Source: Tibeticola sediminis
GTDB lineage: Bacteria > Pseudomonadota > Gammaproteobacteria > Burkholderiales > Burkholderiaceae_C
DNA: 64,000 bases
Assembly: GCF_003843835.1 (NCBI RefSeq)
Contig: NZ_RKQL01000008.1
Location: 1-64,000, forward strand
Direction of reading: 5' to 3'
Below the pieces are notes generated by a model that was given only the letters and a program-made list of their open reading frames with translations, was not told the origin of the DNA and made no database searches. The translations under genes were made by a program, and so were the position numbers. Positions 24,595-50,367 of this stretch are shown here, piece by piece. Within the stretch, counting starts at the first letter, position 1, and each line of letters starts with the position of its first letter.

Positions 24595-24615
24595 GCGGCC
24601 TCCTTTTTTTGATAT

Positions 24616-26250: not shown

Positions 26251-26323
26251 GCCCCGTGTCTCCTCTGACGTCGTCCCTGGCACCGATGATGGGTGGCCCG
26301 TGAGCGTCGACCCTAGACTTTTG

Positions 26324-27460
26324 TCAATAGGCCACATGCTCGTTGTCGCGAATCTGCTGCTCGGTGACCTTGCCGCGCATGACGCGGTAGGCCCAGCCCG
26401 TGTAGAGGATGATGATGGGCATGAAGATCAAGGTGGCATAGAACATGATGGCGAGCGTCAGGTGGCTCGAGACGCTGTCCCACACCGTGAGGCTGGCCGC
26501 GAGTTGCGTCGAGGACGGCATGACGAACGGGAACATGGACGCGCCCGCGGTACCGATGACCCCCACGATGGCCAGCGACGAGGCCACGAAGGCCGAGAGG
26601 GTGCGCCGCGCGCGCATGAGCACCACCGCGGCCAGCGCCCCTACGACGCCCAGCGCCGGCAGCAGCCAGAGCAGCGGCTGGCGGCCGTAGTTGGCCATCC
26701 AGGCGCCGGCTTCGCGCACCACCGTCTTGCTCATCGGGTTGGGCAAAGCAGCCGGATCGACCACGGAGCTGATGCGATAGCCGGGAATGCTCTGCAGCCA
26801 GAAGCCCGCGGCAATGAAGGCCACGACCATGACGATGCCCGCAATCGTGCCGGCGCGGATGGTGCGCGCCTGGATCGCGCCCTCGGTGCGGTGCGCGAGG
26901 TAGGTCGCGCCCTGCAGGGTGATCATGGCACTGCTGACCACGCCGGCAAGCAAGGCGTAGGGGTTGAGCAAAGCCCAGAAGCTGCCGGTGTAGGTGGAAA
27001 TCAGATACTCGTCGAACTGGAAGGGCACACCTTGCAGCAGGTTGCCAAAGGCCACGCCGAAGATGACCGGCGGAATGAAGCCGCCGACGAACAGGCCCCA
27101 ATCCCAGGTGGCGCGCCAGGTGGCGTTGTGGATTTTGCTGCGGTAGTCAAAGCCCACCGGCCGGAAGAACAGCGCCCAGAGCACCGCCAACATGGCCCAG
27201 TAAAAGCCGCTGAACGCGGTGGCGTACACCAGCGGCCAGGCCGCGAAGATGGCGCCGCCGCCGGTGATGAACCAGACCTGGTTGCCGTCCCAGTGCGGCC
27301 CGACGGTGTTGATGACGACGCGGCGCTCGGTGTCGCCCTTGCCGACGAAGGGCAGCAAGGTGCCCACGCCCATGTCGTGGCCGTCCATGATTGCGAAGCC
27401 CACGAGCAGCACGCCCACGAGCAGCCACCAGATGATTTTGAGGGTTGGATAGTCCAGCAT
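26324..27460 (-). CDS. cydB: Cytochrome bd ubiquinol oxidase subunit II
   Basis: Predicted 378-residue membrane subunit with about nine helices, typical length for CydB. It begins LDYPTLKIIWWLLVGVLLVGFAIMDG and includes NQVWFITGGGAIFAAWPLVYA and the late segment MPSSTQLAASLTVWDSVSSH. It pairs with CydA, 18 bases upstream. A 73-base gap without a visible terminator separates it from the octaheme gene. Confidence 0.95.
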   Translation of the reverse strand: MLDYPTLKIIWWLLVGVLLVGFAIMDGHDMGVGTLLPFVGKGDTERRVVINTVGPHWDGNQVWFITGGGAIFAAWPLVYATAFSGFYWAMLAVLWALFFRPVGFDYRSKIHNATWRATWDWGLFVGGFIPPVIFGVAFGNLLQGVPFQFDEYLISTYTGSFWALLNPYALLAGVVSSAMITLQGATYLAHRTEGAIQARTIRAGTIAGIVMVVAFIAAGFWLQSIPGYRISSVVDPAALPNPMSKTVVREAGAWMANYGRQPLLWLLPALGVVGALAAVVLMRARRTLSAFVASSLAIVGVIGTAGASMFPFVMPSSTQLAASLTVWDSVSSHLTLAIMFYATLIFMPIIILYTGWAYRVMRGKVTEQQIRDNEHVAY

Positions 27461-27478
27461 GTCGTTCTCCCGTGGGGT

Positions 27479-29050
27479 TCAGGCGGCGGCCGTCGCGCCG
27501 TGGTGGGCTTCGTTCGTGTAGCGGCCGGTGCCCAGGCTGCCCGGTCCCATCTTGGCGAACTTGACCATCAGGTACATCTCGACGATCAGCAGCAAGGTGT
27601 AGAAGCCCACGAAGCCGGCGAGCGAGCCGTAGAGGCTGGTGACGCTCAGCGTCGAGACCGACAGATGCGTGGGCAACACGCCATAGATGGTCCAGGGCTG
27701 GCGGCCGTATTCGGCGACGAACCAGCCAAGTTCACAGGCGATCCAGGGCGCGGGCAGCATCACCAGCGCCCACTTGAGCAGCCAGGGTCGCTTGCCACAC
27801 TCGAGCTTGAGCGTGCACCAGAAGGCAGTACCAAAGAGCGCGAGCATGAGGAAGCCCAGGCCGACCATGATGCGGAAGCTCCAGAACATGGGCGTGACGC
27901 GCGGGACAGTGTCGTCCACGGCGCGCTGGATGATCTCGGGTGTCGCCTGGCGCACGTCGGTGACGTATTTGCGCAGCAGGAGACCGAAGCCCAGATCGGC
28001 TTTGTGCGCCTCGAACAGCGCGCGCGCAGCCGCGTCGTTGCGGTCTTTGCGCAGGGCTTCGAGCGCGGTCACCGCGTGGATGCCGCTTTCGATGCGCTCG
28101 CGGTTCTTGGCCTTGATTTCCGCAATGCCCGGGATGGTCTTGGTGACCGAGCGCGTGCCGATCAAGCCCATGACGTAGGGAATTTCGATCGACCAATCGT
28201 TTTTCTGCGCCTGCTCGTTGATGCCCGCGACGAGGTTGAAGCTCGCGGGTGCGGGCTCGGTCTCCCACATGGCTTCGATCGCGGCCATCTTGGTCTGCTG
28301 CGCTTCGCCGACGGTATAGCCCGATTCGTCACCGAGCACGATGACGCTGAGCACCGATGCAAGCCCGAAGGCTGCAGCGACGCGGAAGCTGCGTTTGGCG
28401 AATTCGACGTCACGGCCCCTGAGCAGGTAGTAACTCGAGATCGAGAGCACGAACATCGCGCCGGTGACATAGCCGGCCGAGACGGTGTGCACGAACTTCG
28501 CCTGCGCATCGGGGTTGAAGAGCACGGCCCAGAAGTCCGTCATCTCCATGCGCATGGTGTCGAAGCTGAACTCGGCGCCCATCGGGTTTTGCATCCAGCC
28601 GTTGGCGATCAAAATCCACAGCGCCGAAAGATTGGTGCCCAGCGCCATGAGGATGGTGACCAGCAGGTGCTTAGGCTTGGAGAGGCGATCCCAGCCGAAG
28701 AAGAACAGGCCGATCATCGTGGACTCAAGAAAGAAGGCCATGAGTCCTTCGATCGCCAGCGGCGCGCCGAAGATGTCGCCCACGTAGTGCGAGTAGTAGG
28801 CCCAGTTGGTGCCGAACTGGAATTCGAGCGTGATACCGGTGGTCACGCCCAGCGCAAAGTTGATGCCAAAGAGCTTGCCCCAGAAGCGGGTCATGTCTTT
28901 CCAGACGACGTTGCCGGTCATCACGTAAACGCTCTCCATGATGACGAGTAACCACACCATGCCCAGCGTCAGCGGCACAAACAGGAAGTGGTAGAGGGCT
29001 GTCGCCGCAAATTGCAGCCGCGACAGATCCACCAGTTGTTCGGATATCAC
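27479..29050 (-). CDS. cydA: Cytochrome bd ubiquinol oxidase subunit I
   Basis: Predicted 523-residue haem-bearing subunit. Near the N-terminus [20 protein letters not shown] includes the haem b595/d region histidine. The long periplasmic Q-loop is of the E. coli (L-type) length. The C-terminal signature [20 protein letters not shown] is intact. It reduces O2 to water with high affinity and resists NO and sulfide. The start is GTG at 29050, with AGGAG seven bases upstream, embedded in the last codons of cydP, implying coupled translation. Confidence 0.97.
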
Positions 29051-29051
29051 G

Positions 29052-29228
29052 TCACTTCTCCTTTTCTTCGCTGTTGCCCGGCCCGAGCAACTGGGTGGCC
29101 ACGCCGGCCTCTGGCGGCGCGACGCGGTACTCGCGCACGAACACCCACCACAGCGCCACCAGCACAGCCAGCTTGATCACCAGCACGACGGCCAGCTTGC
29201 GCACCAGGGTTCGGTCTTGGAGGTTCAT
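29052..29228 (-). CDS. cydP: Cytochrome oxidase putative small subunit CydP
   Basis: Predicted 58-residue single-helix protein. It begins with a basic segment ([19 protein letters not shown], then [12 protein letters not shown]), the pattern of CydP proteins encoded just before cydA in many proteobacteria. The polar tail ends in EKEK, and its coding sequence supplies the cydA ribosome site. The stop codon is one base from the cydA GTG. It is the first gene behind the sigma-54 promoter. Confidence 0.8.
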
Positions 29229-29255
29229 GGCACGGGGACCTTTCGTAATCATCGA

Positions 29256-29271
29256 AGCAATCTTCATGCCA
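29256..29271 (-). promoter_or_regulatory. Sigma-54 (-24/-12) promoter of the cyd array
   Basis: Minus-strand TGGCATGAAGATTGCT matches the consensus TGGCAC-N5-TTGC(A/T) at all but one position, with correct GG/GC spacing. It lies 28 bases upstream of the cydP ATG and has a divergent sigma-54 activator gene beside it. Transcription should start about 12 bases downstream, near 29244. Confidence 0.8.
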
Positions 29272-29431: not shown

Positions 29432-30811
29432 ATGAAGCCCTATGCCGAACTCACCAGCTTTCTTGATCAGCAGAGCGAGCCCTACATCCTGTTCGACGGC
29501 GACTACCGCATCCTCGCCGCCAACGCGGCTTATCGAATGCTGTTCAGTCCCGAACAAAGCGTGGTCGGGCGCAAGTGTTACGAGGTTTCACACCGCTACA
29601 CCACGCCCTGCGACCAAAACGGCGAGACCTGCCCACTGGCGCGCGCACGAGCCTCGGGGCAGCGGGAGCGGGTGCTGCATCTGCACCACACACCGCGCGG
29701 CGAGGATTACGTCCAGATCGAACTGACCCCGCTGCGCGACGCGGCCGGCACGCTGCAGCTCTACGCCGAAAAAATGGAGCCGCTGCGCCAAAGCTATCGC
29801 GCCGCGTCTCCAAACGGGCCCGAGTTGATCGGCCGCTCGCCGGCGTTTTCGGCCATGCTTGCGCTGGTGGCGCGCGTGGGTCCGTCGATGGCCACCGTGC
29901 TGTTGCTGGGCGAATCGGGCACCGGCAAGGAACTCGTCGCGCGCGCGGTGCACGAGGCGAGTCCGCGCGCTGCGCGGCCACTCGTCGCGGTGGACTGTTC
30001 GAGCTTGCCCGAAACCCTCTTCGAGTCCGAACTGTTCGGCCACGAACGGGGCGCCTTCACCGGCGCGCATGCCGCCCGCGCCGGCCTGGTCGAAGCGGCC
30101 AGTGGCGGCACGCTGTTCCTCGACGAAGTGGGCGACATACCGCTGTCGATGCAGGTCAAGCTGCTGCGCCTGCTCGAGACCGGCACCTACCGGCGCGTGG
30201 GCAGCACCGAACTGCGCCGGGCCGACATCCGCGTCGTCTCCGCGACGCACCGCGATCTCACGGCCATGGTCGCCGATGGGCGCTTTCGCGAAGACCTGTA
30301 TTTCCGGCTCAGCACCTTTCCGATCCGGCTGCCGCCGCTGCGCGAGCGCCTCGAGGACATCGCGCTGCTGGCCCCCGCATTGCTGCAACGGGTGGCGCCC
30401 GAGCGCAAGCTCGAGCTCGCGCCCGCGGCGCTGACCCTGCTGCAAAGCCAGCCCTGGCCCGGTAACGTGCGCGAACTGCGCAACCTGTTGGAGCGTGCCG
30501 CCCTACTCTGCGACGGCTCCGTGATCGAAGCGAGCCATGTCGCGCAAGCACTGTCCGTGAATCAGCCGATCCACCCGGCCGCGTCTCGCCTACCGGCCGC
30601 CACAGCGGACGCGGACGCGGATCGAGCCGCCGCTGGTCCAGAGGCAACGATCAACACCCTGCCGTTGCCTGAGCTCGAACTCGAGGTCTTGCGACAACGG
30701 CTGGCCCGCCACCGCGGCAGCCGCGCCGCCTTGGCCGCCGAACTGGGCATCAGCGAGCGCACGCTCTACCGCCGGCTGCGCGCCCTGGAAGCGCGAGCTG
30801 CGGGCCGGTGA
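29432..30811 (+). CDS. PAS-domain sigma-54-dependent transcriptional activator
   Basis: Predicted 459-residue enhancer-binding protein. A PAS domain (about 12-115) carries a Cys/His cluster: C49, H54, C60 and C67. The AAA+ domain (about 132-360) has Walker A GESGTGKE (160-167), the sigma-54-contact loop GAFTGA (207-212) and Walker B GGTLFLDEVGD. The C-terminal Fis-type HTH contains RAALAAELGISERTLYRRL. There is no receiver domain, so the PAS itself probably senses redox state, a metal or a small ligand. It is transcribed divergently from the cyd array, whose promoter is of the sigma-54 type, making it the likely regulator. Confidence 0.9.
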   Translation: MKPYAELTSFLDQQSEPYILFDGDYRILAANAAYRMLFSPEQSVVGRKCYEVSHRYTTPCDQNGETCPLARARASGQRERVLHLHHTPRGEDYVQIELTPLRDAAGTLQLYAEKMEPLRQSYRAASPNGPELIGRSPAFSAMLALVARVGPSMATVLLLGESGTGKELVARAVHEASPRAARPLVAVDCSSLPETLFESELFGHERGAFTGAHAARAGLVEAASGGTLFLDEVGDIPLSMQVKLLRLLETGTYRRVGSTELRRADIRVVSATHRDLTAMVADGRFREDLYFRLSTFPIRLPPLRERLEDIALLAPALLQRVAPERKLELAPAALTLLQSQPWPGNVRELRNLLERAALLCDGSVIEASHVAQALSVNQPIHPAASRLPAATADADADRAAAGPEATINTLPLPELELEVLRQRLARHRGSRAALAAELGISERTLYRRLRALEARAAGR

Positions 30812-31538: not shown

Positions 31539-32896
31539 TCGTTCGCGTGGATCTTCGCGTGGATGCGCCGGGTCGTGCGCCACACCGCCCACCAGACGAG
31601 CGGGATCAGCGCGCCGGCCGCGAGTTCCGGGTTGATGGGCACGCCCGCACCCTTGAGGGCCTTGCCGCCATAGAGCAGCAGGCTCACCACGTAATACGAA
31701 ATCGCCGCGATCGACAAGCCCTCGACGGTCGACTGCAGCCGCAGCTGGAGCTCCTGCCCGCGCGTGAGCTTGGCCAGCAGCTGCTGGTTTTGCGCCTCGC
31801 GGGCGATGTCGACGCGGGTGCGCAGCAGGGCGCTGGCGCGCGCGATGCGCTCGGAAAGCGAAGCCAGCCGCTGGGCGGTTGCGGCCACCGTGGCCATGGC
31901 AGGCGACAGGCGGCGCTGCATGAACTCGCCCAGAGTCTGCGTGCCGGGAATCGGCTGCTCGCGCAGCTCGGCAAGGCGTTGTTTGACCAGCTCGTAATAA
32001 GCCGAAGTTGCGGAAAAACGGTACGCATGTTCGGCCGTCGCGCGCTCGATGCGTGTGGCCTGCGCGACCAGCGCGTCGAGCAACTGCTGGTCATCGACCG
32101 CCTTGGCTTCGAGCTGCGCCGTGATCTCCGCCAGCGCGCGCTCGGTTTCGCCGAGCATGGGCGTGAGCGCCTTGGCCACCGGCAAGCCGCGCAACGCCAT
32201 GATGCGGTAGGTCTCGATCTCGAGCAGACGCCCGGAAATCCGACCCACGCGCGTTTCCGACGTGCCCGGCGGACAGACCGCCAGCATGCGTTCGAATCCG
32301 CTCGGACGTATCGTCAGGTCCGTCACCACGAGCGAGGCGCCCTCCTTGCCCACGAGCGAAGCCACCACGGCATGGCCGCCGAACCAGGCACGCGCGCGCT
32401 CGAGCGTCTGCGCAACGGGCTCGATCGGCTCCGAAACCATGGCCAGCTTGATCGCCGCAAGCGTGCGCCCAGGAATGCTCGCCAGCCACTGTGGGTCGAC
32501 CCGCACCGCGGGGAACAGCTCGGGCTCGACACTGCCCAGCCCCGCGTGCGGCGGCAGCGGCTGCACGATCGAATAGCGGCTGAACTCGGTATGGCGCTCC
32601 CACTTGACCGTATAGCCATCCAGACGCAGGCGCAGGAAATTGCCTTGCATCGCGTCGAGCGGCAACTCCGCCTGCCCGGGCAGCTCGCGCAAATGCGCCC
32701 ATTCTTCTTCCCGTCGGACGCCCTCGTTCGCCACCGCCACATACACCACCAGAGCGGGCAGCCGTATCCGTGCCGGCGGGCGCGCATGCACCTCGTCGTG
32801 CAGCACGCGGCGCTGCGGGTCTTCGGGTGGAAGTCGCTCGGCAAGCGCCGCTGCCGCGCGCGCTGCCTCAGGGTAGGAGCTCGTGGTCATGGTCAT
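31535..32896 (-). CDS. DUF3422 family membrane protein
   Basis: Predicted 453-residue protein. The N-terminal domain has the family pattern RRVLHDEVHARPPARI and RHTEFSRYSIVQPLP. A long helical middle, likely coiled coil (about 230-380), precedes two C-terminal membrane helices (AAISYYVVSLLLYGGKAL and AAGALIPLVWWAVW). Family members are uncharacterised. It is coupled to the downstream methyltransferase. The region 32897-33005 upstream should hold its promoter; I cannot place one. Confidence 0.85.
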   Translation of the reverse strand: MTMTTSSYPEAARAAAALAERLPPEDPQRRVLHDEVHARPPARIRLPALVVYVAVANEGVRREEEWAHLRELPGQAELPLDAMQGNFLRLRLDGYTVKWERHTEFSRYSIVQPLPPHAGLGSVEPELFPAVRVDPQWLASIPGRTLAAIKLAMVSEPIEPVAQTLERARAWFGGHAVVASLVGKEGASLVVTDLTIRPSGFERMLAVCPPGTSETRVGRISGRLLEIETYRIMALRGLPVAKALTPMLGETERALAEITAQLEAKAVDDQQLLDALVAQATRIERATAEHAYRFSATSAYYELVKQRLAELREQPIPGTQTLGEFMQRRLSPAMATVAATAQRLASLSERIARASALLRTRVDIAREAQNQQLLAKLTRGQELQLRLQSTVEGLSIAAISYYVVSLLLYGGKALKGAGVPINPELAAGALIPLVWWAVWRTTRRIHAKIHANE

Positions 32897-33005
32897 GAGT
32901 GTAGAAGGGCTCCGTCAAGAGGTGAACGACCTTTGCGCCCAAAACCGGTGGAGCATCCAGACCGTGCCTCCCGTTCAGCGCCGTCCACGGCTGGATGGAG
33001 GCTCA

Positions 33006-33164
33006 GAGGCTGAGAGGGAATTGGGCGTGCCCGAAGGGGCGCTCCAAAACGCGCCCGAGTAGGCGCAAAGCACAGCCGTAGCTCGGGCTACGGCGCGCAT
33101 TTGCAACGCCCTCGGGCGTGTTTTGGGGCGTCAAAGCGGGCATGCCCAATTCCCTCTCAGCCTC
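33006..33164. repeat. Family-C inverted-terminal-repeat element, 159 bp
   Basis: The perfect 21-base terminal inverted repeats (33006-33026 and 33144-33164) begin GAGGCTGAGAGGG and end CCCTCTCAGCCTC, and extend imperfectly inwards (GGGCGTGCCC versus GGGCATGCCC). The centre has the core hairpin shared with families A and B: TAGGCGCAAAGCACAGCC, GTAGC, GCTAC, then GCATTTGCAACGC. The right end abuts the stop codon of the CsoR-family gene. No coding frame inside is credible. Confidence 0.85.
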
Positions 33165-33521
33165 TCAGCCCCGTCGGGCCAACATCTGTTCGAGTTCGCC
33201 CAGAAGCAGCGGCAAGCGGCTGCGCAGGGCATCGTCACTCTCGGTCAACTCCGCTGAAATCTCCTGCTGCAACAGGCAGACCGTCATGTGCACGAATGCG
33301 TTGTCGAGCGCCCGGCGAACCGCCGAGAATTGCTGCGCCACCTTGCCGCAATCCTCTCCGCGTTCGATCATGCCTTGGATGCCGCGCAGCTGCCCTTCGG
33401 CCCGGCGCAAGCGGTTGAGCAAGTCGTGGCGGACATCGGGCGAATCCAGACCCCCAGGCGCAGCCGCGTGCACCGCGCCGCCGGCATTCAAAGACCCCGT
33501 CCGTTCAGGCTGTGCCGCCAT
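33165..33521 (-). CDS. CsoR/RcnR/CstR-family (DUF156) repressor
   Basis: Predicted 118-residue all-helical repressor. The core DLLNRLRRAEGQLRGIQGMI is the family DNA-binding/tetramer segment. Candidate ligand residues are C58, H78 and C82. Classical CsoR and CstR place the second cysteine about 29 residues after the first; here it is 24, so the site differs from both. It is the last gene of an operon with SQR and an RND pump, whose promoter carries a CsoR-type operator, so it probably autoregulates. Sulfane-sulfur sensing is inferred from neighbours; copper or another metal is possible. Confidence 0.85.
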   Translation of the reverse strand: MAAQPERTGSLNAGGAVHAAAPGGLDSPDVRHDLLNRLRRAEGQLRGIQGMIERGEDCGKVAQQFSAVRRALDNAFVHMTVCLLQQEISAELTESDDALRSRLPLLLGELEQMLARRG

Positions 33522-33527
33522 GACCCA

Positions 33528-34535
33528 TCAGGACTGAGCCGGCGCGACCTGCATCGACGCCACGGGCTCGGGTGCCAACAGGCTGCCTTCCCGCAAGCCT
33601 TTGACCGTGGCCAGGATCAACCACACGATCACCAAGGTCGCCAAGGCAAGGCTCAGCAACACCATGGTCTGGAACGAGCCCGAGGCATGCGCGGTCAGCC
33701 GCAGGCCGAGTGCGGCGAAGGCCGCCAGCGGGAACGACAGGCCCCAGAACATCAAACCAAACGGCTGATCGAGCATGCGCCGCACGGTGGTGGCCGACCA
33801 GAGCAAGAAAAACAGCGCGATGCCCCAGGCCATCCAGGCCCAAATCGGTGGGGCGCCGAATTGCAAGGCGTCCAAGCCGATGACCGCAGGCGGCGCCACC
33901 GTGATGAAGGTGGTCGGCAGCAAACGCTCTGGCCAAATGCCGCTGACCGCGAGCCGCACCACGAGCAGGCTCAACACCACTGGCCACAAGAACAGGCCCA
34001 CGCCAAACTGCAGTTGTGCCCAGGTTCCGAAACCCAAGGCCGGACCGGCCAAGCCTGTCACCACGTTCCCGACCACCGGCACGAACAAAGCGGGCGTCAC
34101 CCCCGCCCAGAAAGCCGGCCCCGACACACCGGGCCGCAGCCAGCGCCCGAGCACCCACACCGTGACCGCGAACTGCCAGGCCGAGCCCAGCGCCCACAGC
34201 CCGCCGAGCAACGGATCGGGCCCGATCAAGGCCGTGCCGACGGTTGCGAGCAAGATGAGCGACACCGGCATCGCCGCCACCATGACATGCCGCACCGGGT
34301 GTTTGAGGTCTTCCGCCCAGGCCTGCGGGTAGCGGCGCCAGCGTATGAAGGACAAGACGGCCAGCACCACAGCGACGGTGGCCGCAAGCCCCGCGAGCAC
34401 CAGCGCCCCGGCGCCGGCGAGCTCACCAAACAGCGGCGCCGCGCGCAGCCACGCGAGCGCCAGACCACACAGGCCCATCACCAGGACGAACCAGCCGGGA
34501 GCGAGAAACTTGAGCGGGGTGCTGGAGGTATTCAT
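33528..34535 (-). CDS. SLAC1/TehA-type anion channel (TDT family)
   Basis: Predicted 335-residue protein with about ten membrane helices (first: FLAPGWFVLVMGLCGLALAW; conserved PGWF and WxF-type turns such as SAWQFAVTVWVLGRWL). The layout matches the tellurite-resistance/dicarboxylate and SLAC1 channel family. In bacteria these are passive anion channels, and a sulfite or hydrosulfide role would suit its place between an OsmC protein and the CsoR-family regulator. Substrate is unproven. Confidence 0.8.
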   Translation of the reverse strand: MNTSSTPLKFLAPGWFVLVMGLCGLALAWLRAAPLFGELAGAGALVLAGLAATVAVVLAVLSFIRWRRYPQAWAEDLKHPVRHVMVAAMPVSLILLATVGTALIGPDPLLGGLWALGSAWQFAVTVWVLGRWLRPGVSGPAFWAGVTPALFVPVVGNVVTGLAGPALGFGTWAQLQFGVGLFLWPVVLSLLVVRLAVSGIWPERLLPTTFITVAPPAVIGLDALQFGAPPIWAWMAWGIALFFLLWSATTVRRMLDQPFGLMFWGLSFPLAAFAALGLRLTAHASGSFQTMVLLSLALATLVIVWLILATVKGLREGSLLAPEPVASMQVAPAQS

Positions 34536-34578
34536 GCCATGGAACCTCGGAATTGAAGATCGTGCCGATCACCGCCGA

Positions 34579-35025
34579 TCATTTGAGCTTCACACCTTCA
34601 CTGTCGAAGACTTCAACCTCGATCGGCACCGCCTGCCCGATGGTCTGCGCCACCGTGCAAAAGGCTTCGAACTGCGCCAGCACCCGGTCGAGATGTTCGA
34701 GCGTGGCCGCAGGCACCCCGAGCGTGATCGCCGCGTGCATGGCCTGCACGCGAAGCCTGCCCTGTTCGTTGCGTCCAATCTCGGCACGCATCCGGCAGCG
34801 GATCGGCTCGGGCGCCTGTTTGAACTTGCGCAGCGCAAACAGCAAGGAGTCGCACAGACAGTTGCCCGCGGCTGCGCACAGCAGTTGCACCGGCGTCGGA
34901 CCGAGGCCGGTGCCGAGTGGCACCGACTCGTCGGTCGTCAGCACCGGCACCGAGCCGCCAAAGTCCACATCGAAGCGGTAGTCCTGCCGCTGGCTCAGCG
35001 TGATTTCGACGGTTTTTTCACTCAT
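34579..35025 (-). CDS. OsmC-family thiol protein
   Basis: Predicted 148-residue protein. The OsmC/Ohr fold is indicated by GTGLGPTPVQLLCAAAGNCLCDSLLFALRKF, with the two cysteines near the start of the central helix, and by the C-terminal FEAFCTVAQTIGQAVPIEVEV. Family members reduce organic hydroperoxides or handle persulfides. Genetic linkage to SQR favours a thiol/persulfide role. The ATG at 35025 begins MSEKTVEI; earlier starts would overlap DUF2892. Confidence 0.8.
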   Translation of the reverse strand: MSEKTVEITLSQRQDYRFDVDFGGSVPVLTTDESVPLGTGLGPTPVQLLCAAAGNCLCDSLLFALRKFKQAPEPIRCRMRAEIGRNEQGRLRVQAMHAAITLGVPAATLEHLDRVLAQFEAFCTVAQTIGQAVPIEVEVFDSEGVKLK

Positions 35026-35045
35026 GGTGCGCTCCAGGGTGCCGA

Positions 35046-35267
35046 TCAGGCGCCGCAGCCTTTGCCTTCGGGCACGCCGAGCTTCTTGAGGATGCTCGCA
35101 AGCGGGCAGAAGTTCGTGAACCCGAACTGGAACAGGTTCAGGCCCACGAAGGCCGTGAACGCGAGCGCCCACTTGCTCACAAACAAGGGGCTGCCCTCCA
35201 CGCCGAGCGCGAGCGAGATCAGGATGAACAGGCCAGCAAAGATGCGGATGTAGCGTTCAACGGTCAT
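35046..35267 (-). CDS. DUF2892 membrane protein (YgaP-like C-terminal domain)
   Basis: Predicted 73-residue protein with two membrane helices. The pattern TVERYIRIFAGLFILISLALG and AFVGLNLFQFGFTNFCPLASILKKLG is typical of DUF2892, the membrane part of the rhodanese YgaP. The conserved FCPL cysteine and the C-terminal GKGCGA cysteine could carry a persulfide. The rhodanese domain itself is missing here. Confidence 0.85.
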   Translation of the reverse strand: MTVERYIRIFAGLFILISLALGVEGSPLFVSKWALAFTAFVGLNLFQFGFTNFCPLASILKKLGVPEGKGCGA

Positions 35268-35297
35268 GGTCGGACTCCTCCAAAACAACAAAAACAA

Positions 35298-36656
<1,359 letters not shown>

Positions 36657-39600
36657 TCAGCTTGCGGCATGGCGATGCCGGTACATCGCGAAATAAAGCA
36701 CCGGAATGACCACCAGCGTGAGCAAGGTGGATACGAAAATGCCAAAAATCAGTGAGATGGCGAGGCCGTTGAAGATCGGGTCATCGAGGATGAAGAAGGC
36801 CCCGATCATCGCGGCGAGCCCGGTGAGCGCGATCGGCTGCGCACGCACCGAAGCCGAGTTGATCACCGCCTGCGCGAACGGCACGCCCTGCGCGACCTGC
36901 AGGTCGATGAAGTCCACCAGCAAAATGGAGTTGCGCACGATGATGCCGGCGAGCGCGATCATCCCAATCATGCTGGTCGCCGTGAACTGCGCCCCGAGCA
37001 AGGCGTGTCCCGGCATGACGCCGATCATGGTCAAAGGAATCGGCGCCATGATGACGAGCGGCGTCAAATAGCTCTTGAACTGCGCGACCACCAGCAGATA
37101 GATCAGCACCAGCCCCACCGCATAGGCCGCGCCCATGTCGCGGAAGGTTTCATACGTGATCTGCCACTCGCCGTCCCACTTGATCGCGTACTCGCGGAAG
37201 GTGTCGGCCGGCTGGCGGATCCAGTATTCGCCCAGCGGCCCAGCGTTGGGCAGTTGTGCCGCCGCCAGATGGGGGCGAATCGCAAACAGGCCGTAGAGCG
37301 GTGAGTCGAGCCGTCCGGCCATGTCGCCGATGACGTAGCTGACGGGCTTGAGGTCCTTGGTGTAGAGCGGCTTGTCGATCACGCCCCGATCCACGCGCAC
37401 GAGCTCGGACAGCGGCACCATTTTCCCGTTGGCTGCCTTCATGGGCAGAGCGAGCAAACTGTCGAGGCCGACCTGGTCCGCCAACGGCAGCCGCAGCGTC
37501 ACCGGCACCGGATATTTCGATTGGCCATCGTGCAAATAGGCGGCGTCGACCCCGGACAAAGCCGCGTAGACGGTGCGCGCCACCGCTTCGACCGGGATCC
37601 CCAGCGACTCGGCGCGCTGGCGCCGCACGGTGATGTGGGCACGGGGCGCGTCTTCCTTCAGCGTGGTGTCGATGCCGACGATGTCGGGCGTCTGCGCAAA
37701 AGCTTCGCGGGCGATGCGCTCGGCGAGCGCTTGCCGGCCGGCTTCATCAGGCCCGTAGACCTCGGCGACGAGCGGACTCATCACCGGCGGGCCGGGCGGC
37801 ACTTCGACGACCTTGATGCGCGCCTGGTGGCGCGCGCCGATGCGCTCGAGCTCGGGGCGCAAGCGCTGCGCGATCGCATGGCTCTTTTCGCTGCGATGGT
37901 GCTTGTCGACCAGGTTGACCTGAAGGTCCCCCTGTTCGGCGTCGGCGCGGAAATAGTATTGGCGCACGAGACCGTTGAAGGTGATCGGGCTTGCGGTGCC
38001 GGCATAGGCCTGCAGATCGACCACCTCGGGCTGCTGTGCCAGGAAGCTGCCGAGGTCGCGCAGGGCCGCTGCAGTGTCCTCGAGCGGCGTGCCCGCCGGC
38101 ATGTCGACGACGACCTGGAACTCGCTCTTGTTGTCGAAGGGCAGCATCTTCAGCACCACCCACTGCACGACCGCCAGGCCAGCTGAGAGCATCAGCGCGA
38201 CCAGGATGCCCGCGAGCATCAGCCAGCGTTTGCGCGCGCTCTCCAAAAAGGGCGTCAGCACGCGCGTGAAGAAGCGCTGCAGCATCGGGCCCAAGCCCTT
38301 GGGGTTGTCCGCGTGGGCACCCGACACATGGCTTTGAAGCAGGCTGCGCGCGAGCCAAGGCGTGACGCTGAAGGCGATCAGCAGCGAAATCGCCATGCCC
38401 ATGCTGGCATTGATTGGGATGGGGCTCATGTACGGCCCCATGAGGCCGCTGACGAACGCCATCGGCAAGAGGGCTGCAATCACGGTCAGCGTCGCGAGGA
38501 TGGTGGGGCCACCGACCTCGTCGACCGCAGCCGGGATGATCTCGGCCAGCGGCTTGTGCGGATCGAGTTGCTGATGCCGATGGATGTTTTCGACGACGAC
38601 GATGGCGTCATCGACCAAGATGCCGATGGAGAAAATCAGCGCAAACAGCGACACTCGGTTCAGCGTGAAGCCCCAGGCCCAGCTGGCAAACAGCGTGGCA
38701 GTGAGCGTGAGGATGACCGCCGCGCCGACGATCACCGCCTCGCGCCGGCCCAGTGCCAGGCCGACGAGCAAAATCACCGAGGCGGTCGCAAACGCCAGCT
38801 TCTGGATCAGCTTGTTGGCCTTCTCCGCGGCCGTCACCCCGTAGTCCCGGCTGACGGTCACTTCGATGTTCGAAGGAATGACGGTGTTTCGTAGCGCATC
38901 CATGCGCTCGCGTGCCGCGCGTGCCACGTCGACCGCGTTTTCGCCGGGCTTCTTGGTCACCGTAATCGTGACCGCAGGATAGACACCGCCGGGCTGCAGC
39001 CCCGCGGTGCTTTCGGCCCCTTCCGAGGCGGCACCCACGGCCGCTTGGCCTGGGGTGTGCCAGACATAACGCTGGGGCAGTTGCGCGCCGGTTTCGATCT
39101 TGGCGACCTCGCGCAGGTACACGGGCTTGCCCTCGTGGACGCCGACGACCAGCGAGCCGATCTCTTGCTCGTTGCTGAGGAACTCGCCGGTTTCGACGCT
39201 CAGCATCTGCGGTTTGTTGGGCGCACTCGGGTCGATCACGGCGCCCGAGGGCATGCCGAAGTTGGCCGCCGAGAGGATTTGCTTGAGTGTGAGCACGTCG
39301 ATGCCCCGCTCACGCAGCCGCGTCGGGTCGAGCCACACATGAACCGCGCGTCCCGGCCCGCCGATGGTCTGCACCTCGCGCGTGCCTTTGACGGACTTGA
39401 GCTCGAGTTCGACCGTGCGCGCCACCTGCTCGAGATCGACCGCTGCCGTGGCGTCACGACTCCACAGGGTCAGCGCCAGCACCGGAACGTCGTCGATGCC
39501 CTTGGGCTTGATGATGGGGGCGAGCGTGCCGAGGTCACGCGGCAGCCAATCCTGGTTGGCGTTGAGCACGTCATAGAGGCGCACCAGCGCTTCGGTGCGC

Positions 39601-39953
39601 GGCACGCCGACTTTGAACTGCACCGTCAACACCGCCAGGCCCGGCCGCGCCACCGAATAGGTGTGTTCGATGCCCGCGATCTGCGCCAGCACCTGCTCGG
39701 CCGGACGTGCCACCATGTTCTGCACGTCGGTGCTGCTGGCCCCGGGGAAGGGGATCAGCACGTTGGCCATGGTCACGTTGATCTGCGGCTCCTCTTCACG
39801 CGGCGTAACGAGGATCGCAAACAGCCCCAGCAACAAGGCCACCAGCGCGAGCAGCGGCGTAATCGCGTTGGCCTGGAACAACGCGGCCATGCGCCCCGAA
39901 ATACCCAGGGACTGCGGCGCGACGACGGGCGAGGAGGACGGATGTTCGTTCAT
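36657..39953 (-). CDS. RND-family efflux transporter permease
   Basis: Predicted 1098-residue inner-membrane pump with twelve expected membrane helices in two halves and large periplasmic loops. The TM4 proton-relay segment is SIGILVDDAIVVVENIHR, and the halves begin ITPLLALVALLLGLFAILV and YLTPLVIMAPIPLTMIG. It forms a tripartite system with the adaptor upstream; no outer-membrane channel is encoded here. Its place in an SQR operon suggests export of a reactive sulfur or metal species, but the substrate is unknown. I use the ATG at 39953; a TTG at 39974 would overlap the adaptor gene. Confidence 0.9.
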   Translation of the reverse strand: MNEHPSSSPVVAPQSLGISGRMAALFQANAITPLLALVALLLGLFAILVTPREEEPQINVTMANVLIPFPGASSTDVQNMVARPAEQVLAQIAGIEHTYSVARPGLAVLTVQFKVGVPRTEALVRLYDVLNANQDWLPRDLGTLAPIIKPKGIDDVPVLALTLWSRDATAAVDLEQVARTVELELKSVKGTREVQTIGGPGRAVHVWLDPTRLRERGIDVLTLKQILSAANFGMPSGAVIDPSAPNKPQMLSVETGEFLSNEQEIGSLVVGVHEGKPVYLREVAKIETGAQLPQRYVWHTPGQAAVGAASEGAESTAGLQPGGVYPAVTITVTKKPGENAVDVARAARERMDALRNTVIPSNIEVTVSRDYGVTAAEKANKLIQKLAFATASVILLVGLALGRREAVIVGAAVILTLTATLFASWAWGFTLNRVSLFALIFSIGILVDDAIVVVENIHRHQQLDPHKPLAEIIPAAVDEVGGPTILATLTVIAALLPMAFVSGLMGPYMSPIPINASMGMAISLLIAFSVTPWLARSLLQSHVSGAHADNPKGLGPMLQRFFTRVLTPFLESARKRWLMLAGILVALMLSAGLAVVQWVVLKMLPFDNKSEFQVVVDMPAGTPLEDTAAALRDLGSFLAQQPEVVDLQAYAGTASPITFNGLVRQYYFRADAEQGDLQVNLVDKHHRSEKSHAIAQRLRPELERIGARHQARIKVVEVPPGPPVMSPLVAEVYGPDEAGRQALAERIAREAFAQTPDIVGIDTTLKEDAPRAHITVRRQRAESLGIPVEAVARTVYAALSGVDAAYLHDGQSKYPVPVTLRLPLADQVGLDSLLALPMKAANGKMVPLSELVRVDRGVIDKPLYTKDLKPVSYVIGDMAGRLDSPLYGLFAIRPHLAAAQLPNAGPLGEYWIRQPADTFREYAIKWDGEWQITYETFRDMGAAYAVGLVLIYLLVVAQFKSYLTPLVIMAPIPLTMIGVMPGHALLGAQFTATSMIGMIALAGIIVRNSILLVDFIDLQVAQGVPFAQAVINSASVRAQPIALTGLAAMIGAFFILDDPIFNGLAISLIFGIFVSTLLTLVVIPVLYFAMYRHRHAAS

Positions 39954-39970
39954 GGCGGATCGAAGCTCGC

Positions 39971-41065
39971 TCAACGGGCTGCGGCAGCCGCGGCGGGACG
40001 CGCACCTGCGAGCCCTGCGCGGACGGGATCGAGCGCCACCCGGTCGTCACGGCCGAGGCCGGCGAGCACTTCGATGCCCGCGGCCCCATGATCCGCGCCG
40101 AGTCGCACGGCTTTGAGCATGAAGCCCTGCTCCGTCGCGGTGTAGACACCCGTCAGTTCCCCCCGGCGCAAAACCGCCTGCGCGGGAATGACCAGACGCT
40201 CGGCGCTGCCGCCAACGAAGCGCACCCGCACCTGCTGCCCCGGCACGACCGCCGAGGCGGCCGCATCGGGCAGATCGAGCCGCCATTCGACCGTTTGCGC
40301 GACCGGATCGGCCGCGGGCAAAGCCGTGCGGCTGGTCGGCTCGATCCACGAGGTCGCGCCGCCTTTGGCCGTCGGCACTTGCACCTCGACCCGCGTGGCG
40401 CTGCGGGCCACCGCATCGAGCGAAGCGGGCACCTGCACCACGGCCCGTAGCGGGCGCGGCGCATACAAAACCAGCAACGGCCGCCCGGGAGCCGCGAGGT
40501 CGCCCGGATCGGCCAAGGTCTGCAGCACCCAGCCCTCATAAGGTGCCGTCACCCGCGTGTAGCCCTGGGCAAGACCGGCCTGCCGCAAGGCCGCGGCCGC
40601 CTGGTCGCGTCCGGCGAGGGCGGCTTTGTATTGCGCTTCGGCGGAGTCGAGCGCCGCCTGGCTCACGAAGCCCTTTTGGCGCAGCTCGGTGGTACGGTCG
40701 AATTGGGCCTTGGCGTTGCGCAAATCGGCCTCGGCCTGCGCGACCTGCGCCTGGCTGCGCTGGACCCCGGTTTGCGTCTCGCGGTCGTCGATGGTGGCCA
40801 GCACCTGCCCCGCCTTCACCCGATCCCCAGCCTTGACGAGCAGCGCCACGACGCGGCCCGCAGCCTGCGCCGCGATGGTGCTCTGACGCACGGGCTGGAT
40901 GACGGCGTCGTATTCGATCCCGGTGGCCACTGGCTGCGGACGGACCTGAACGACTGGCACCTCGATGGCCGTAGCCGCCGCGGGCGCAGCCCACGCCCAA
41001 GGTGCCGCGGCCAGCGCCAACAGCACCGCAGAAAGCCGACGAACAGAAAACACGGACGGACGCAT
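39971..41065 (-). CDS. RND efflux periplasmic adaptor (membrane fusion protein)
   Basis: Predicted 364-residue exported protein. After a signal peptide (LSAVLLALAAAPWAWAAPA) it has the lipoyl half-motif AAQAAGRVVALLVKAGDRVKAGQVLATID, a coiled-coil hairpin (about 95-165), a beta-barrel and a membrane-proximal domain. It is the first gene of the operon. The ATG at 41065 follows GGAGG by five bases, and the promoter/operator lies only about 25 bases upstream. Confidence 0.9.
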   Translation of the reverse strand: MRPSVFSVRRLSAVLLALAAAPWAWAAPAAATAIEVPVVQVRPQPVATGIEYDAVIQPVRQSTIAAQAAGRVVALLVKAGDRVKAGQVLATIDDRETQTGVQRSQAQVAQAEADLRNAKAQFDRTTELRQKGFVSQAALDSAEAQYKAALAGRDQAAAALRQAGLAQGYTRVTAPYEGWVLQTLADPGDLAAPGRPLLVLYAPRPLRAVVQVPASLDAVARSATRVEVQVPTAKGGATSWIEPTSRTALPAADPVAQTVEWRLDLPDAAASAVVPGQQVRVRFVGGSAERLVIPAQAVLRRGELTGVYTATEQGFMLKAVRLGADHGAAGIEVLAGLGRDDRVALDPVRAGLAGARPAAAAAAR

Positions 41066-41089
41066 GAAACCTCCACTCTGAAGTTGCGG

Positions 41090-41119
41090 ATGATAAATAC
41101 CCCCTGGGGTATATGTCAA
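41090..41119 (-). promoter_or_regulatory. Sigma-70 promoter with embedded CsoR/CstR-type operator
   Basis: On the minus strand a perfect -35 TTGACA (41114-41119) and a -10 TATCAT (41090-41095) are 18 bases apart. The spacer holds the palindrome ATACCCCAGGGGGTAT (41097-41112), matching the TACCCC/GGGGTA operators of the CsoR/CstR family. A repressor bound there would block polymerase directly. The cognate regulator is probably the gene at 33165-33521. Confidence 0.85.
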
Positions 41120-41153
41120 CCGCCCCCGGGTTTCCCCGGATGCCGGACCGCAA

Positions 41154-44338
<3,185 letters not shown>

Positions 44339-44339
<1 letters not shown>

Positions 44340-44851
44340 TACGGTTCTCCTTGCGTGACCGGCAGCGCCAGCATGTTTTCGATCAGGCGGGTCATCACGC
44401 CCTGATTTTTGGCGTCCGATTCGGCCACCAGCAGCGCGAGCGCGGCTTCCAGTTCGGCGGGGTTCTTCTCGAAGCGCTGGCGGTCGAGCGAAAACCCACG
44501 GGTCAGGTGCTCGCGCAACACGCGCGTGGCCCACTGGCGAAAGCGCGTCGCGCGCGTGGAGTTCACCCGGTAACCGACCGAGATAATGGCGTCGAGGTTG
44601 TAGTGCTTGAGCCGACGCTGTACCTGCCGCCGACCTTCGGTTTGAACTGCTAAGAAATCCTTAGTGGTTGCCGCTTCCTCCAGCTCGCCCTCACGGTAGA
44701 TGTTTTTCAGGTGCATGAGCACGTTTTCTGGGGTGGTGGCGAACACCTCGGCCATCTGGCGCTGGGTGAGCCAGATGGATTCGCCCTCGAGCCGAACCTC
44801 CACCGACTGATCGGCGGCTTCGAAGATGACCAGCGAGTTTGACGTGGTCAT
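44339..44851 (-). CDS. RhuM-family protein (short)
   Basis: Predicted 170-residue protein. The RhuM pattern is clear: [65 protein letters not shown]. Family members that I recall are about 330 residues; this one ends soon after the N-terminal domain, so it is a short form or C-terminally truncated. RhuM genes are common passengers in type I restriction loci, with unknown function. The ATG at 44851 precedes [10 protein letters not shown]. Confidence 0.8.
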
Positions 44852-44930
44852 GATTTTTCCTCCCTCAAAAGCGATTCGGCATTCTTCACCCGAGCCTCTC
44901 CGGAACCGCAACGGGTTTTGGTGATGTGAG

Positions 44931-45898
44931 TCAGGCCAAAACCAAGCCGGGTTTCAGACCGAGGCGATCACGGAACTCCGGTGGAATATCGCCCCAATGT
45001 TCGACCAAGAGATCGACGAGTTGACGCCCGTTGACGAGACCGATACGCGGAAATCCCGTTTCTAGCGCTACGTCGGCGGCGGCACTCTGGAAGTCGGCCG
45101 TCGTAATGAAGGCGCCTTGCCCCCCAAAAGGAATGGCCTGCCGAAGCTGCCGCACCGTATTCGCACTGACCTTGGTGCCGAGCTTATAGCGCTTGGCCTG
45201 CACAAAGACCTTGACCTTGGCGAGATTGGCGACGTTCAGTTCTCCCGTGGCATCGACGCCTCCATCGCCCGTCTTGCCGATAACCTCCGATCCCTCGAAG
45301 CCCAGCGCGGTGAGCAAATGCCCGACCAGAATCTCGAACTCCTTGTCGTCCAGTTCCAGTAGCTGTTCCAGCACAACACGGTAGGGATCGTACGGCGAAG
45401 CAGCCGATTGGGGCACCAGATCCGAGCGGCCAATCACTGCCAGAAACTCATCGCGCTGAGATACGGCAAACACGGTCAGCGAAGAACGGATCGTGTTCTG
45501 GAAAGGCACGGAGAACTCACCGCGCTTCAGCCGTTCTTTCGCCCAGATCACCCGGCGGCGGTGGCGATAAGGGCAGCCATCATCACCTGATGCATAGTAA
45601 TACGAGGGCTCTGGCGCGATCTGCCCGTAGTGCAGCCACTCGGTATCGGCGGCCGGCGTGATGACATAGTCGCCGGCGCGGATCTCCAGAAGGAAGCGGG
45701 CAATCTGCCCAACCTGTTGTCCAATGACGATATTGCTTGTGTCGTCGGGGTGTTCCGCTTTGTAGATGGGGTATAACTCGTCGCGCGACTGGACCGAAGA
45801 CAGATCCGTGTTGGGCAACCAGCCGATGGCAACGTAACCCCCCTCGACAAAATGTTTGGTGTAAGTGCCGAAGTCGGCACGAACGCACCAGACGTTGG

Positions 45899-45902
<4 letters not shown>
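44931..45902 (-). CDS. Mrr-like restriction endonuclease
   Basis: Predicted 323-residue protein. The C-terminal half has the Mrr-type PD-(D/E)xK core: FEILVGHLLTALGFEGSEVIGKTGDGGVDATGEL, then VKVFVQAKRYKLG (D...QxK variant) and AFITTADFQSAA. The N-terminal half (VWCVRADFGTYTKHFVEGGYVAIGW) is a separate domain of the kind seen in modified-DNA-directed or self-standing restriction enzymes. It may restrict modified DNA. It overlaps hsdS by four bases. Confidence 0.8.
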
Positions 45903-47131
<1,229 letters not shown>

Positions 47132-47179
47132 CCTCCCTCAGATTCGCCTCGATCATCGCATCCCGTCGCGCCGCCTCGC

Positions 47180-48364
47180 TCATACCGCCCCCTCGCCCGT
47201 CTCCTCGAACAGCCGCACATACGGCTCGAAGCGGAAGCGCCGGTTGCGGGCGTAGCCGGTGATTTCGCGCAACAGGCCGATGCCTTCCAGTCTGGAGACG
47301 ATCTGGTTGGCCCCGGCCGGGGTGAGCCCCAGCCATTCGCGCACGGTGGCCACCGAAACGATGGGGTGGTCGAACAGGCGGTCCATCACGCGTTGGCCGT
47401 TGGCGGCGGCGCGGCCCAGATGCTCGGTGATGCGGGCGCGGTAGTCCTCGCGCATGCGCAGGATCGCGGCGGCGGTGTGCGTGGCCTGCTGGCTGACGTC
47501 GATGACGCCATCGAGAAAGAACGCGAGCCACCCCTCCCAATCCCCGACGTCGCGCACAGCCTGCAGGCGTTCGTAGTACTCGCTGCGGCGCTGCCTGAAG
47601 TAGTGGGAAAGGTAGAGCACAGGTTTGGACAGCAGCCGTTTTTCGGTGAGCAGGAAGGCGATCAAGAGCCGCCCGATGCGGCCGTTGCCGTCCAGGAAGG
47701 GGTGGATGGTCTCGAACTGGGCGTGGGCAAGGCCCACCTGCACCAGCGGGGGCAGGCCGCCGCCGTCGTGGAGGAAGCGCTCCAGATCGGAAAGCGCCTG
47801 CGGCACCTCGTGCGGCGGCGGGGGCACGAAGGTCGCGTTGGCCAGCGTGCAACCGGCGGGGCCGATCCAGTTCTGGCTGGTGCGCAGCTCTCCCGGTTGC
47901 AGGCGGCCGCCGCGCACGCCCTGCATGAGCTGCGCGTGGATTTCGCGGATCAGCCGCACCGAGAAGGGCAGGTCCGCCAGCCGGTTCAAGCCGTGGTTCA
48001 TGGCCCGCACGTAGTTGGCCACCTCATTCACATCCTTGGGTGTGTCGGGGTCGAAGAGCTGCGCCTCGGCTGCCAGCAGGTTCTGCAGCGAAGACTGGGT
48101 GCCCTCGATCTGGCTGGAGAGCACGGCCTCCTTGCGCACGTACATGAAGACGAACAGATCGGGGTTGGGCAGCGTGAGCACCGCCCCATCGAGACGGCCG
48201 AGCGCATAGTCGGCGGCAGAAAGCTTGTCGCGCAAGACGCCGCCAAGGTCGAGCGGGGGGTCCGGCGGCAGGGGTGCCGGAATGAAGGCACGGTAGCCCG
48301 TGGGCTGGCGCAGGTAGCGCCCGGCGCGGGCTGCCTTGTTAGCGGTTGCGTTATTTATGGCCAT
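47180..48364 (-). CDS. Fic-family protein (class II, with inhibitory motif)
   Basis: Predicted 394-residue AMPylator-type protein. The Fic active-site loop is [14 protein letters not shown]. An N-terminal inhibitory helix motif [10 protein letters not shown] ((S/T)xxxE(G/N)) indicates a self-inhibited class II Fic. The C-terminal 80 residues resemble a winged-helix ([26 protein letters not shown]). It lies between hsdM and hsdS in the same orientation, a recurring but unexplained arrangement. Confidence 0.9.
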
Positions 48365-48431
48365 TTGCGCGCCGCTTGGTTAACGTAGCGTTTATTATTG
48401 GGCGATTTGGCGGCCATATGCAACGCAGCGC

Positions 48432-49982
<1,551 letters not shown>

Positions 49983-50201: not shown

Positions 50202-50367
50202 AGGGCAAGGCTGAATCCGTTCCCGTGATGGCGCGCGCCCGGCTGCGGGCTGGGATGCGAGGGGCAAACCGAGACAATAGCCGCAGCCATGGCGAGGATA
50301 GTCAACGACGCACGCCGCCCGCCGCCGGGATGCGCGACGCACGTGGGACTCGTTCAGCGTTGCCCTA
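50202..50367. repeat. Family-A inverted-terminal-repeat element, copy 3
   Basis: Ends AGGGCAAGGCTGAATCCGTT and GACTCGTTCAGCGTTGCCCT. The interior has GATGGCGCGCGCCCGG, GGGGCAAACC, GCCATGGCGAGGAT and CGCCCGCCGCCGGGATG in the copy 1 orientation. The stop codon of ssb (TAG, 50365-50367) is formed by the element's terminal CCCTA. A degenerate partial right end may precede it near 50170-50201. Confidence 0.8.

Follow-up and report, generated by a model that had tools for sequence, protein, structure and literature searches.

A 64,000-nucleotide stretch of Tibeticola sediminis contig NZ_RKQL01000008.1 (the window) carries, on its minus strand, a cluster of seven open genes (33165-41065) that joins a resistance-nodulation-division (RND) efflux pump to a sulfide-oxidizing enzyme and a DUF156 (CsoR-family) repressor. 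The first gene encodes a cysteine-free periplasmic adaptor, or membrane fusion protein (39971..41065; HlyD_D23 and Biotin_lipoyl_2 domains; TIGR01730, 188.1 bits, above the cut-off), and the second a drug-efflux-like RND permease of 1098 residues, likewise cysteine-free (36657..39953; ACR_tran, E 1.6e-141). These are followed by a sulfide:quinone oxidoreductase (SQR) of the Acidithiobacillus type (35298..36590; Pyr_redox_2), a DUF2892 transmembrane protein (35046..35267; YgaP-like_TM, the Pfam name of that family), an OsmC-family protein (34579..35025; OsmC), a SLAC1/TehA-family anion channel (33528..34535; SLAC1) and, as the last gene, the repressor (33165..33521; Trns_repr_metal, the Pfam name of the DUF156 family). 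From the coordinates, no intergenic gap exceeds 66 bases: RND to SQR 66, SQR to DUF2892 30, DUF2892 to OsmC 20, OsmC to SLAC1 43 and SLAC1 to repressor 6. The adaptor and permease genes are 17 bases apart with the ATG start at 39953, and overlap by 4 bases if the possible TTG at 39974 is used. Gene content, order and Pfam families all agree with the first-pass annotation, which had described seven minus-strand genes with short gaps and the adaptor and permease leading. We saw no metal gene among the seven, and the operon includes no TolC-type gene; elsewhere in the source genome, 12 matches to the OEP domain fall at about six places. The seven genes most likely form one transcription unit, repressed by the product of its own last gene.

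A strong predicted sigma-70 promoter, TTGACA-18-TATCAT (41090..41119, minus strand), lies directly upstream of the adaptor gene, 34 bases beyond the end of an hsdR gene, with position 41119, the end given in the first-pass annotation, as the first base of its -35 hexamer. It matches the consensus at 11 of 12 positions and is the strongest promoter-like site in 32800-41400, where two sites were found (the second at 34607-34578) against 0.7 expected by shuffling. Separate promoters for the pump and SQR parts were one outcome that the first-pass annotation held to be incompatible with its reading; the scan of this region found no promoter-like site between the RND and SQR genes, and thus predicts no separate promoter for SQR there.

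The promoter spacer contains, between -35 and -10, a near-perfect palindrome, TACCCCAGGGGGTA (41098..41111), that we predict to be an operator of the CsoR-family type. It is the sole such place in the window even when two mismatches are allowed, and the identical 14 bases recur in L228, a locus with a persulfide dioxygenase (PDO)-like gene. According to the part of PMC10318464 considered here, the sites bound by most CsoR-RcnR proteins are pseudo-palindromes that contain four or more G or C in a row. A looser pattern, TAC-N3..6-GGGGTA, is found upstream of the leading pump gene in 12 of the 16 pump loci that carry the repressor and in none of the 74 that lack it (Fisher p 6.6e-12, uncorrected for the relatedness of the loci). 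We settled on this pattern after viewing upstream sequence from L087 and from the loci that carry the repressor, and the 12/16 is thus partly fitted; the sites in L227, L228, L229, L231, L232 and L233, and 73 of the 74 repressor-free loci, had no part in the choice. A smaller set of loci, in which the L085 site is not counted, gave 10/14 versus 0/23, with the pattern in 0.3% of first-order shuffled regions, and the overall background is 19 occurrences in 1.04 Mb of fetched loci. The strict spelling TA-N-CCC..GGG-N-TA is found at the window's site and in none of 61 fetched loci. It is the co-occurrence of operator type and repressor that supports the predicted control of this sulfide operon by its own repressor, as the first-pass annotation had proposed.

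The repressor has the DUF156 fold (Pfam PF02583, 67.3 bits against a cut-off of 22.8). Its AlphaFold model forms three helices (predicted local distance difference test, pLDDT, 84.4; predicted template modelling score, pTM, 0.67), and structure matches to the model include FrmR, CsoR, InrS and CstR at Z 8-11, scores that helical bundles may attain as well. C58 and C82 are its only cysteines, lie 24 residues apart and are invariant in 16/16 aligned sequences, and the positions +25 and +29 from the first cysteine are L and E. Copper CsoR presumably coordinates its metal through Cys-His-Cys at 0, +25 and +29 (M. tuberculosis CsoR), so that a protein reading C, L and E there is not a copper CsoR by its ligands; the nearest NCBIfam model is nevertheless the copper sensor RicR, at 34.7 bits against a cut-off of 175. 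Nor is it a canonical CstR, with E at +29 and a 24-residue spacing versus the 29 residues between Cys31 and Cys60, which are linked in Staphylococcus aureus CstR (PMC9495516, in the part considered). Judged from its residues and neighbours, the repressor is CstR-like in gene context and cysteine pair and departs from CstR in spacing. The earlier assignment to the CsoR/CstR family holds at the level of the DUF156 family and needs correction as to canonical CstR.

Relatives of the repressor keep similar company. A paralogue in the same genome (L193:4807-6195) shares the C/C+24 pair. Directly downstream of it is a metallo-beta-lactamase (MBL)-rhodanese gene, a fusion that would be of the persulfide-dioxygenase type; a class I/II aminotransferase-fold gene comes next. 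The same PDO-like neighbour adjoins the DUF156 gene in L009, L015 and L021. Among more distant DUF156 genes, a PDO-like gene lies within 7 kb in L228, L229 and L232, and a DUF2892-adaptor-RND set in L233; around those of L234-L236, which have no second cysteine, none of the tested genes lies within about 8 kb. The search of the order gave 16 DUF156 rows, of which 15 were used (G129, with a stop codon, was dropped): the second cysteine is at +24 in 11/15 and absent in 4/15. A pump or PDO-like gene stands beside 7 of the 11 versus none of the 4, where 4 of the 11 and 1 of the 4 are represented by a 1.5 kb flank checked for PDO-like genes only.

The best structure match of the SQR is 3sz0 (E 1.5e-181), over residues 2-429, its full length, with three cysteines aligned. 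We take 3sz0 to be the type I SQR of Acidithiobacillus and its three cysteines to be catalytic; full-length similarity and all three cysteines, the features of type I, are thus present. The DUF2892 cysteine C54 is kept in 86/86 proteins, the window's included, and the OsmC pair C56/C123 in 18/18; the OsmC protein matched no PDB chain at E 0.01. The SLAC1-family protein matches structure entries of a TehA homologue and of plant SLAC1/SLAH channels. Together, the seven-gene set probably oxidizes toxic sulfide.

Synteny was compared across 200 genomes of the family and 200 of the order, in which a window-type SQR occurs in 47 and 61, respectively. Of the family SQR loci, 43 were compared (window included; one for each of 43 of the 47 genomes, G238, G310, G214 and G263 being left out): the pump lies within 5.5 kb in 29 of them, with a DUF156 repressor as well in 12. 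RND, SQR, DUF2892 and DUF156 genes stand together in 11 other family loci (L081-L083, L085, L091-L093, L096, L102, L107 and L140), a grouping that is more than chance. The full seven-gene set, whose synteny the first-pass annotation suggested searching for as RND-SQR-DUF2892-OsmC-SLAC1-DUF156, is present in L081, L083 and L093 (in a different order in L093), and L082, at a contig end, lacks the adaptor only.

The pump clade itself extends through the order, in at least 64/200 genomes and at least 65 places, both lower bounds from three scored candidates per genome. Around the 63 places examined (window included; the partial G173 and G153 left out), DUF2892 was found at 57, SQR at 16, a PDO-like gene at 3, OsmC at 4, SLAC1 at 2, rhodanese at 26, thioredoxin at 19 and a TolC-type gene at 9. 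A regulator of one of three types accompanies the pump at 42 of them: an ArsR protein with the SqrR/BigR cysteine pair at 26, an LCDLVC-type ArsR at 12 and DUF156 at 4, with ArsR types set by regular expressions and one representative per label confirmed by Pfam. In 51/63, one or more of the markers SQR, PDO-like, DUF156 and the two ArsR types is present. By comparison, 20 control RND loci of the order have no DUF2892, SQR, OsmC, SLAC1 or DUF156, and yielded one ArsR match about 3.5 kb away, two weak PDO-like matches and five thioredoxins. Although the first-pass annotation had considered an RND pump beside sulfide genes unexpected, it is not exceptional: the clade occurs with SQR and/or thiol-type regulators order-wide, and the portion of PMC12423496 considered here states that sulfane-sulfur ArsR regulators appear to target RND efflux pump genes too, which puts the link between RND pumps and sulfur already in print in general terms.

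The regulators beside this pump appear to have been exchanged. Regulator type (labelled SqrR-type by hand for L087 and L181) changes at least seven times on the pump tree, the minimum on that tree, and L087, with a BigR-type repressor and a PDO-like gene, is nested in the main DUF156 group (15 rows), whereas the DUF156 rows L138 and L233 fall outside it. Beside the pump and SQR, both L087 and L181 carry a BigR-type gene together with a PDO-like one of the MBL superfamily. That sensors from unrelated families accompany one and the same pump and SQR argues for a shared signal, and since two-cysteine proteins of the SqrR/BigR type are established sulfane-sulfur sensors (PMC12423496, in the same portion), sulfane sulfur is the most economical one.

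The pump belongs to the same RND family as AcrB, MdtBC and CusA and forms a clade of its own. In a tree of 88 such pumps with Escherichia coli AcrB, MdtB, MdtC and CusA, the pumps separate with full local support (FastTree only, with long branches to the E. coli outgroup and to L233), and a sister RND group lies at 42-46% identity. AcrB positions D407, D408, R971 and T978 are kept in 88/88 permeases and K940 is replaced by R in 88/88; we take these five to be the AcrB proton-relay residues. The nearest NCBIfam models are drug-efflux permeases (RND_permease_2, 448.6 bits against a cut-off of 1250), with all 15 listed models below their cut-offs, and no PDB chain matched the permease at E 1e-60. 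Of the seven CusA methionine positions compared, M486 is methionine in 88/88 and M573 in 4/88, and M623, M672, M391, M403 and M1009 are methionine in 0/88. The window's permease reads V, F and a gap at M573/M623/M672, presumably the CusA methionine triad, and thus lacks this heavy-metal efflux (HME)-type feature. Cysteine is nearly absent from the permeases, with none in 83/88, one in 4 and two in 1, whereas only 2/28 control RNDs of the order have none; in E. coli, the count is two for each of AcrB, MdtB and CusA and four for MdtC. Few or no cysteines in the permease would fit a thiol-reactive substrate.

The locus is real and conserved: a sulfide operon that includes an RND pump and is predicted to be under its own repressor, with reactive sulfur very probably in control of it. 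A reactive sulfur compound may also be the cargo of the pump, whose relatives recur beside predicted reactive-sulfur sensors. Taken whole, the statement that the operon is induced by reactive sulfur, oxidizes sulfide and exports a sulfane-sulfur product, with the substrate proposed from context, is the explanation we favour, and we hold it to be somewhat better than an even bet. At rest, the DUF156 repressor would bind TACCCCAGGGGGTA between -35 and -10, an operator recognized by comparison. As persulfide or polysulfide rises, C58 and C82 would become cross-linked or persulfidated, by analogy with CstR, in which di-, tri- or tetrasulfide bridges form between protomers, and the repressor would leave the DNA. 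SQR, on strong homology, would then convert H2S to sulfane sulfur and deliver the electrons to quinone, DUF2892 with its invariant cysteine and OsmC may deal with persulfides or reduce them, and an anion such as sulfite may exit through the SLAC1-type channel. In the least certain step, the permease and adaptor, with an outer-membrane partner encoded elsewhere, would extrude a product of sulfide oxidation across the outer membrane; candidate cargoes are polysulfide, an organic polysulfane or S8 leaving the inner membrane.

Several observations weigh against this explanation. The cysteine spacing of the repressor is unlike that of CstR and the same chemistry is not guaranteed, and the DUF156 proteins of L230 and L231 have the second cysteine, yet no sulfur gene adjoins them. 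Four of the 16 repressor-bearing loci (L096, L107, L138 and L233) show no match to the operator pattern within the stretch scanned, although L233 has two pattern sites about 450 bases upstream, beyond that stretch. Twelve of the 63 pump loci are without any sulfur marker, and SQR, OsmC and SLAC1 stand beside the pump in just 16, 4 and 2 of the 63. The nearest NCBIfam model of the SQR is type III, at 104.6 bits against a cut-off of 525. Among 26 more distant permeases of the phylum (26 of 30 loci; the window, G289, G285 and G020 were excluded because they belonged to the first set or lay near it), 12 have no cysteine; a single cysteine occurs in 10, two in 3 and four in 1. DUF2892 lies within a 1.5 kb flank in 5/26; the arguments from cysteine absence and from DUF2892 weaken outside the order. 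RND pumps are also often broad in substrate, and the proposed cargo is conjectural.

One alternative is a defence against thiol-reactive organosulfur compounds from outside the cell, such as allicin-like thiosulfinates and polysulfanes, in which the RND proteins are a drug pump for these compounds and SQR, OsmC and DUF2892 clean up the reactive sulfur that they set free. Pumps of the hydrophobe/amphiphile efflux (HAE) type are generally known to export hydrophobic organics, OsmC, thioredoxin and carboxymuconolactone decarboxylase (CMD)-family genes lie near the pump in some loci (families by Pfam), and osmC, trx and ahpD are found in the allicin-resistance islands of a Pseudomonas (PMC7119367, in the part considered). 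However, the main text of that paper contains no occurrence of RND, and the islands carry dsbA, oye and kefFC, which were not seen here, where no search was aimed at them. With SQR and PDO-like partners pointing to inorganic sulfide, we consider such a defence unlikely. A general multidrug pump could instead have come under a reactive-sulfur sensor and move no sulfur itself, much as sulfane sulfur is reported to act on MexR and MarR, which regulate resistance to multiple antibiotics. The similarity of the permease to drug-efflux models would suit this, as would the reported action of sulfane sulfur on MarR-family resistance regulators (PMC9495516 and PMC11211675, in the parts considered). Against it, DUF2892 (57/63), SQR and thiol-type regulators accompany the pump across many families of the order, with a single ArsR match at the 20 control loci, and the permease has few or no cysteines; we rate this explanation as rather improbable. 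Efflux of copper or another metal, in which a CsoR metal sensor would control an RND metal pump and the sulfide genes would manage metal-sulfide stress, is very improbable and is rejected as the leading explanation, and the metal export entertained in the first-pass annotation is disfavoured: although the DUF156 family includes copper, nickel and cobalt sensors with RicR as the nearest model, the operator type is common to metal-sensing CsoRs and M486 is conserved (with M573 in 4/88), the copper-ligand positions +25 and +29 of the repressor are L and E, most CusA methionines are replaced, the drug-pump DD pair is kept in 88/88, the operon shows no metal gene, and sulfane-sulfur-type ArsR proteins stand in for the repressor in relatives.

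The favoured sulfide operon resembles known systems in part. As in the CstR-controlled cst operons of S. aureus and Enterococcus faecalis and in the YrkD cluster of Bacillus licheniformis, a two-cysteine DUF156 repressor is found in a sulfide/persulfide-clearance cluster, which in the YrkD case also has an SQR (PMC9918477 and PMC9405070, in the parts considered). Unlike these, the window's repressor is the last gene, and the operon adds the RND pump, OsmC, DUF2892 and SLAC1 and has no rhodanese or dioxygenase in it. The ArsR regulons of SqrR, BigR and sHdrR likewise tie sulfane-sulfur-sensing repressors to sqr, pdo and rhodanese genes (PMC12423496); the window's repressor is from a different family, and section 6 of that paper gives no substrate, pump clade or DUF156 link. 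Thermus thermophilus TTHA1953 is a CsoR-family regulator of sulfur oxidation that also uses two cysteines, C39 and C68; in contrast to the window, these are 29 residues apart, its operator is without a G/C run, it acts on Sox genes located at other places in the genome, and no RND pump is mentioned in the part of PMC10318464 considered here. Within the open-licence literature (subscription papers were outside the scope), we found no study of an SQR-RND operon, of this pump clade or of a C-X23-C repressor.

Other arrangements were seen around the pump in the order. The LCDLVC-type ArsR genes (L122, L141, L143 and others) are divergent from the pump, and the motif lies near the C terminus of the protein, with a cysteine pair unlike that of SqrR. 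An adaptor-RND-DUF2892 set occurs in 11 to 19 order loci (L149, L151, L155-L157, L166, L170 and others), often with a SqrR-type ArsR. It is flanked by an iPGM-type mutase (16 loci) on one side and by glutaredoxin (11), SecB (16) and glycerol-3-phosphate dehydrogenase (19) on the other, where the SecB-side stretch often includes a rhodanese; the families of these flanking genes come from one representative each.

Within the window, a type I restriction system (41154-49982, minus strand) of hsdR, an Mrr-type protein (Mrr_cat), hsdS and hsdM separates the operon from an ssb-like gene (50365-50862). In L081, L083 and L085, the end of the ssb-like gene directly precedes the adaptor gene (by eye), so that the restriction system seems to have been inserted there in the window. 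Directly after the repressor gene lies a 171-base near-palindrome (33000-33170) with 60-base arms that are 85% complementary. It has at least about 40 copies in the genome, most of them 94-98% identical (82 rows, matches on both strands, from 40 of 141 candidates scored), and resembles a miniature mobile or long-hairpin repeat. Farther along, a PAS-type sigma-54 activator (29432-30811, plus strand) is divergent from cydAB, encoding a bd oxidase (26324-29271, minus strand), which is directly followed by genes for a multihaem cytochrome (Cytochrome_cB, C7/C554-like domains) and a b561-type cytochrome (23893-26337, minus strand). The activator cysteines C49, C60 and C67, with spacings of 11 and 7, resemble those of FisR, which links Cys53 and Cys64 (PMC9495516, in the part considered). 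A sigma-54-like TGGCAT-N5-TTGC with one mismatch lies upstream of cydA at 29271-29257; such sites are not enriched in the window, with 72 matches against 93.6 expected. The activator and cydAB, about 2.4 kb from the sulfide operon, may belong with it to a larger sulfide locus. A gene of the TauE/SafE sulfite-exporter family is found at 14763-15527 (plus strand).

To our knowledge, how Gram-negative bacteria dispose of SQR-made polysulfide and persulfide beyond the capacity of their dioxygenases, and how zero-valent sulfur leaves the cell, is not settled. A broader proposal, which we advance tentatively and at somewhat less than even odds, is that the clade is a widespread RND exporter of sulfane sulfur that avoids cysteine and is mostly placed under exchanged sulfane-sulfur sensors, and that the repressor represents a proteobacterial C-X23-C subfamily of DUF156 persulfide sensors. 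The repressor poses the question of whether a shifted cysteine in a CsoR fold can still sense persulfide, and a pump clade whose genome context links it to several kinds of thiol-type regulator offers a direct genetic handle, with one deletion, on the exit of sulfur.

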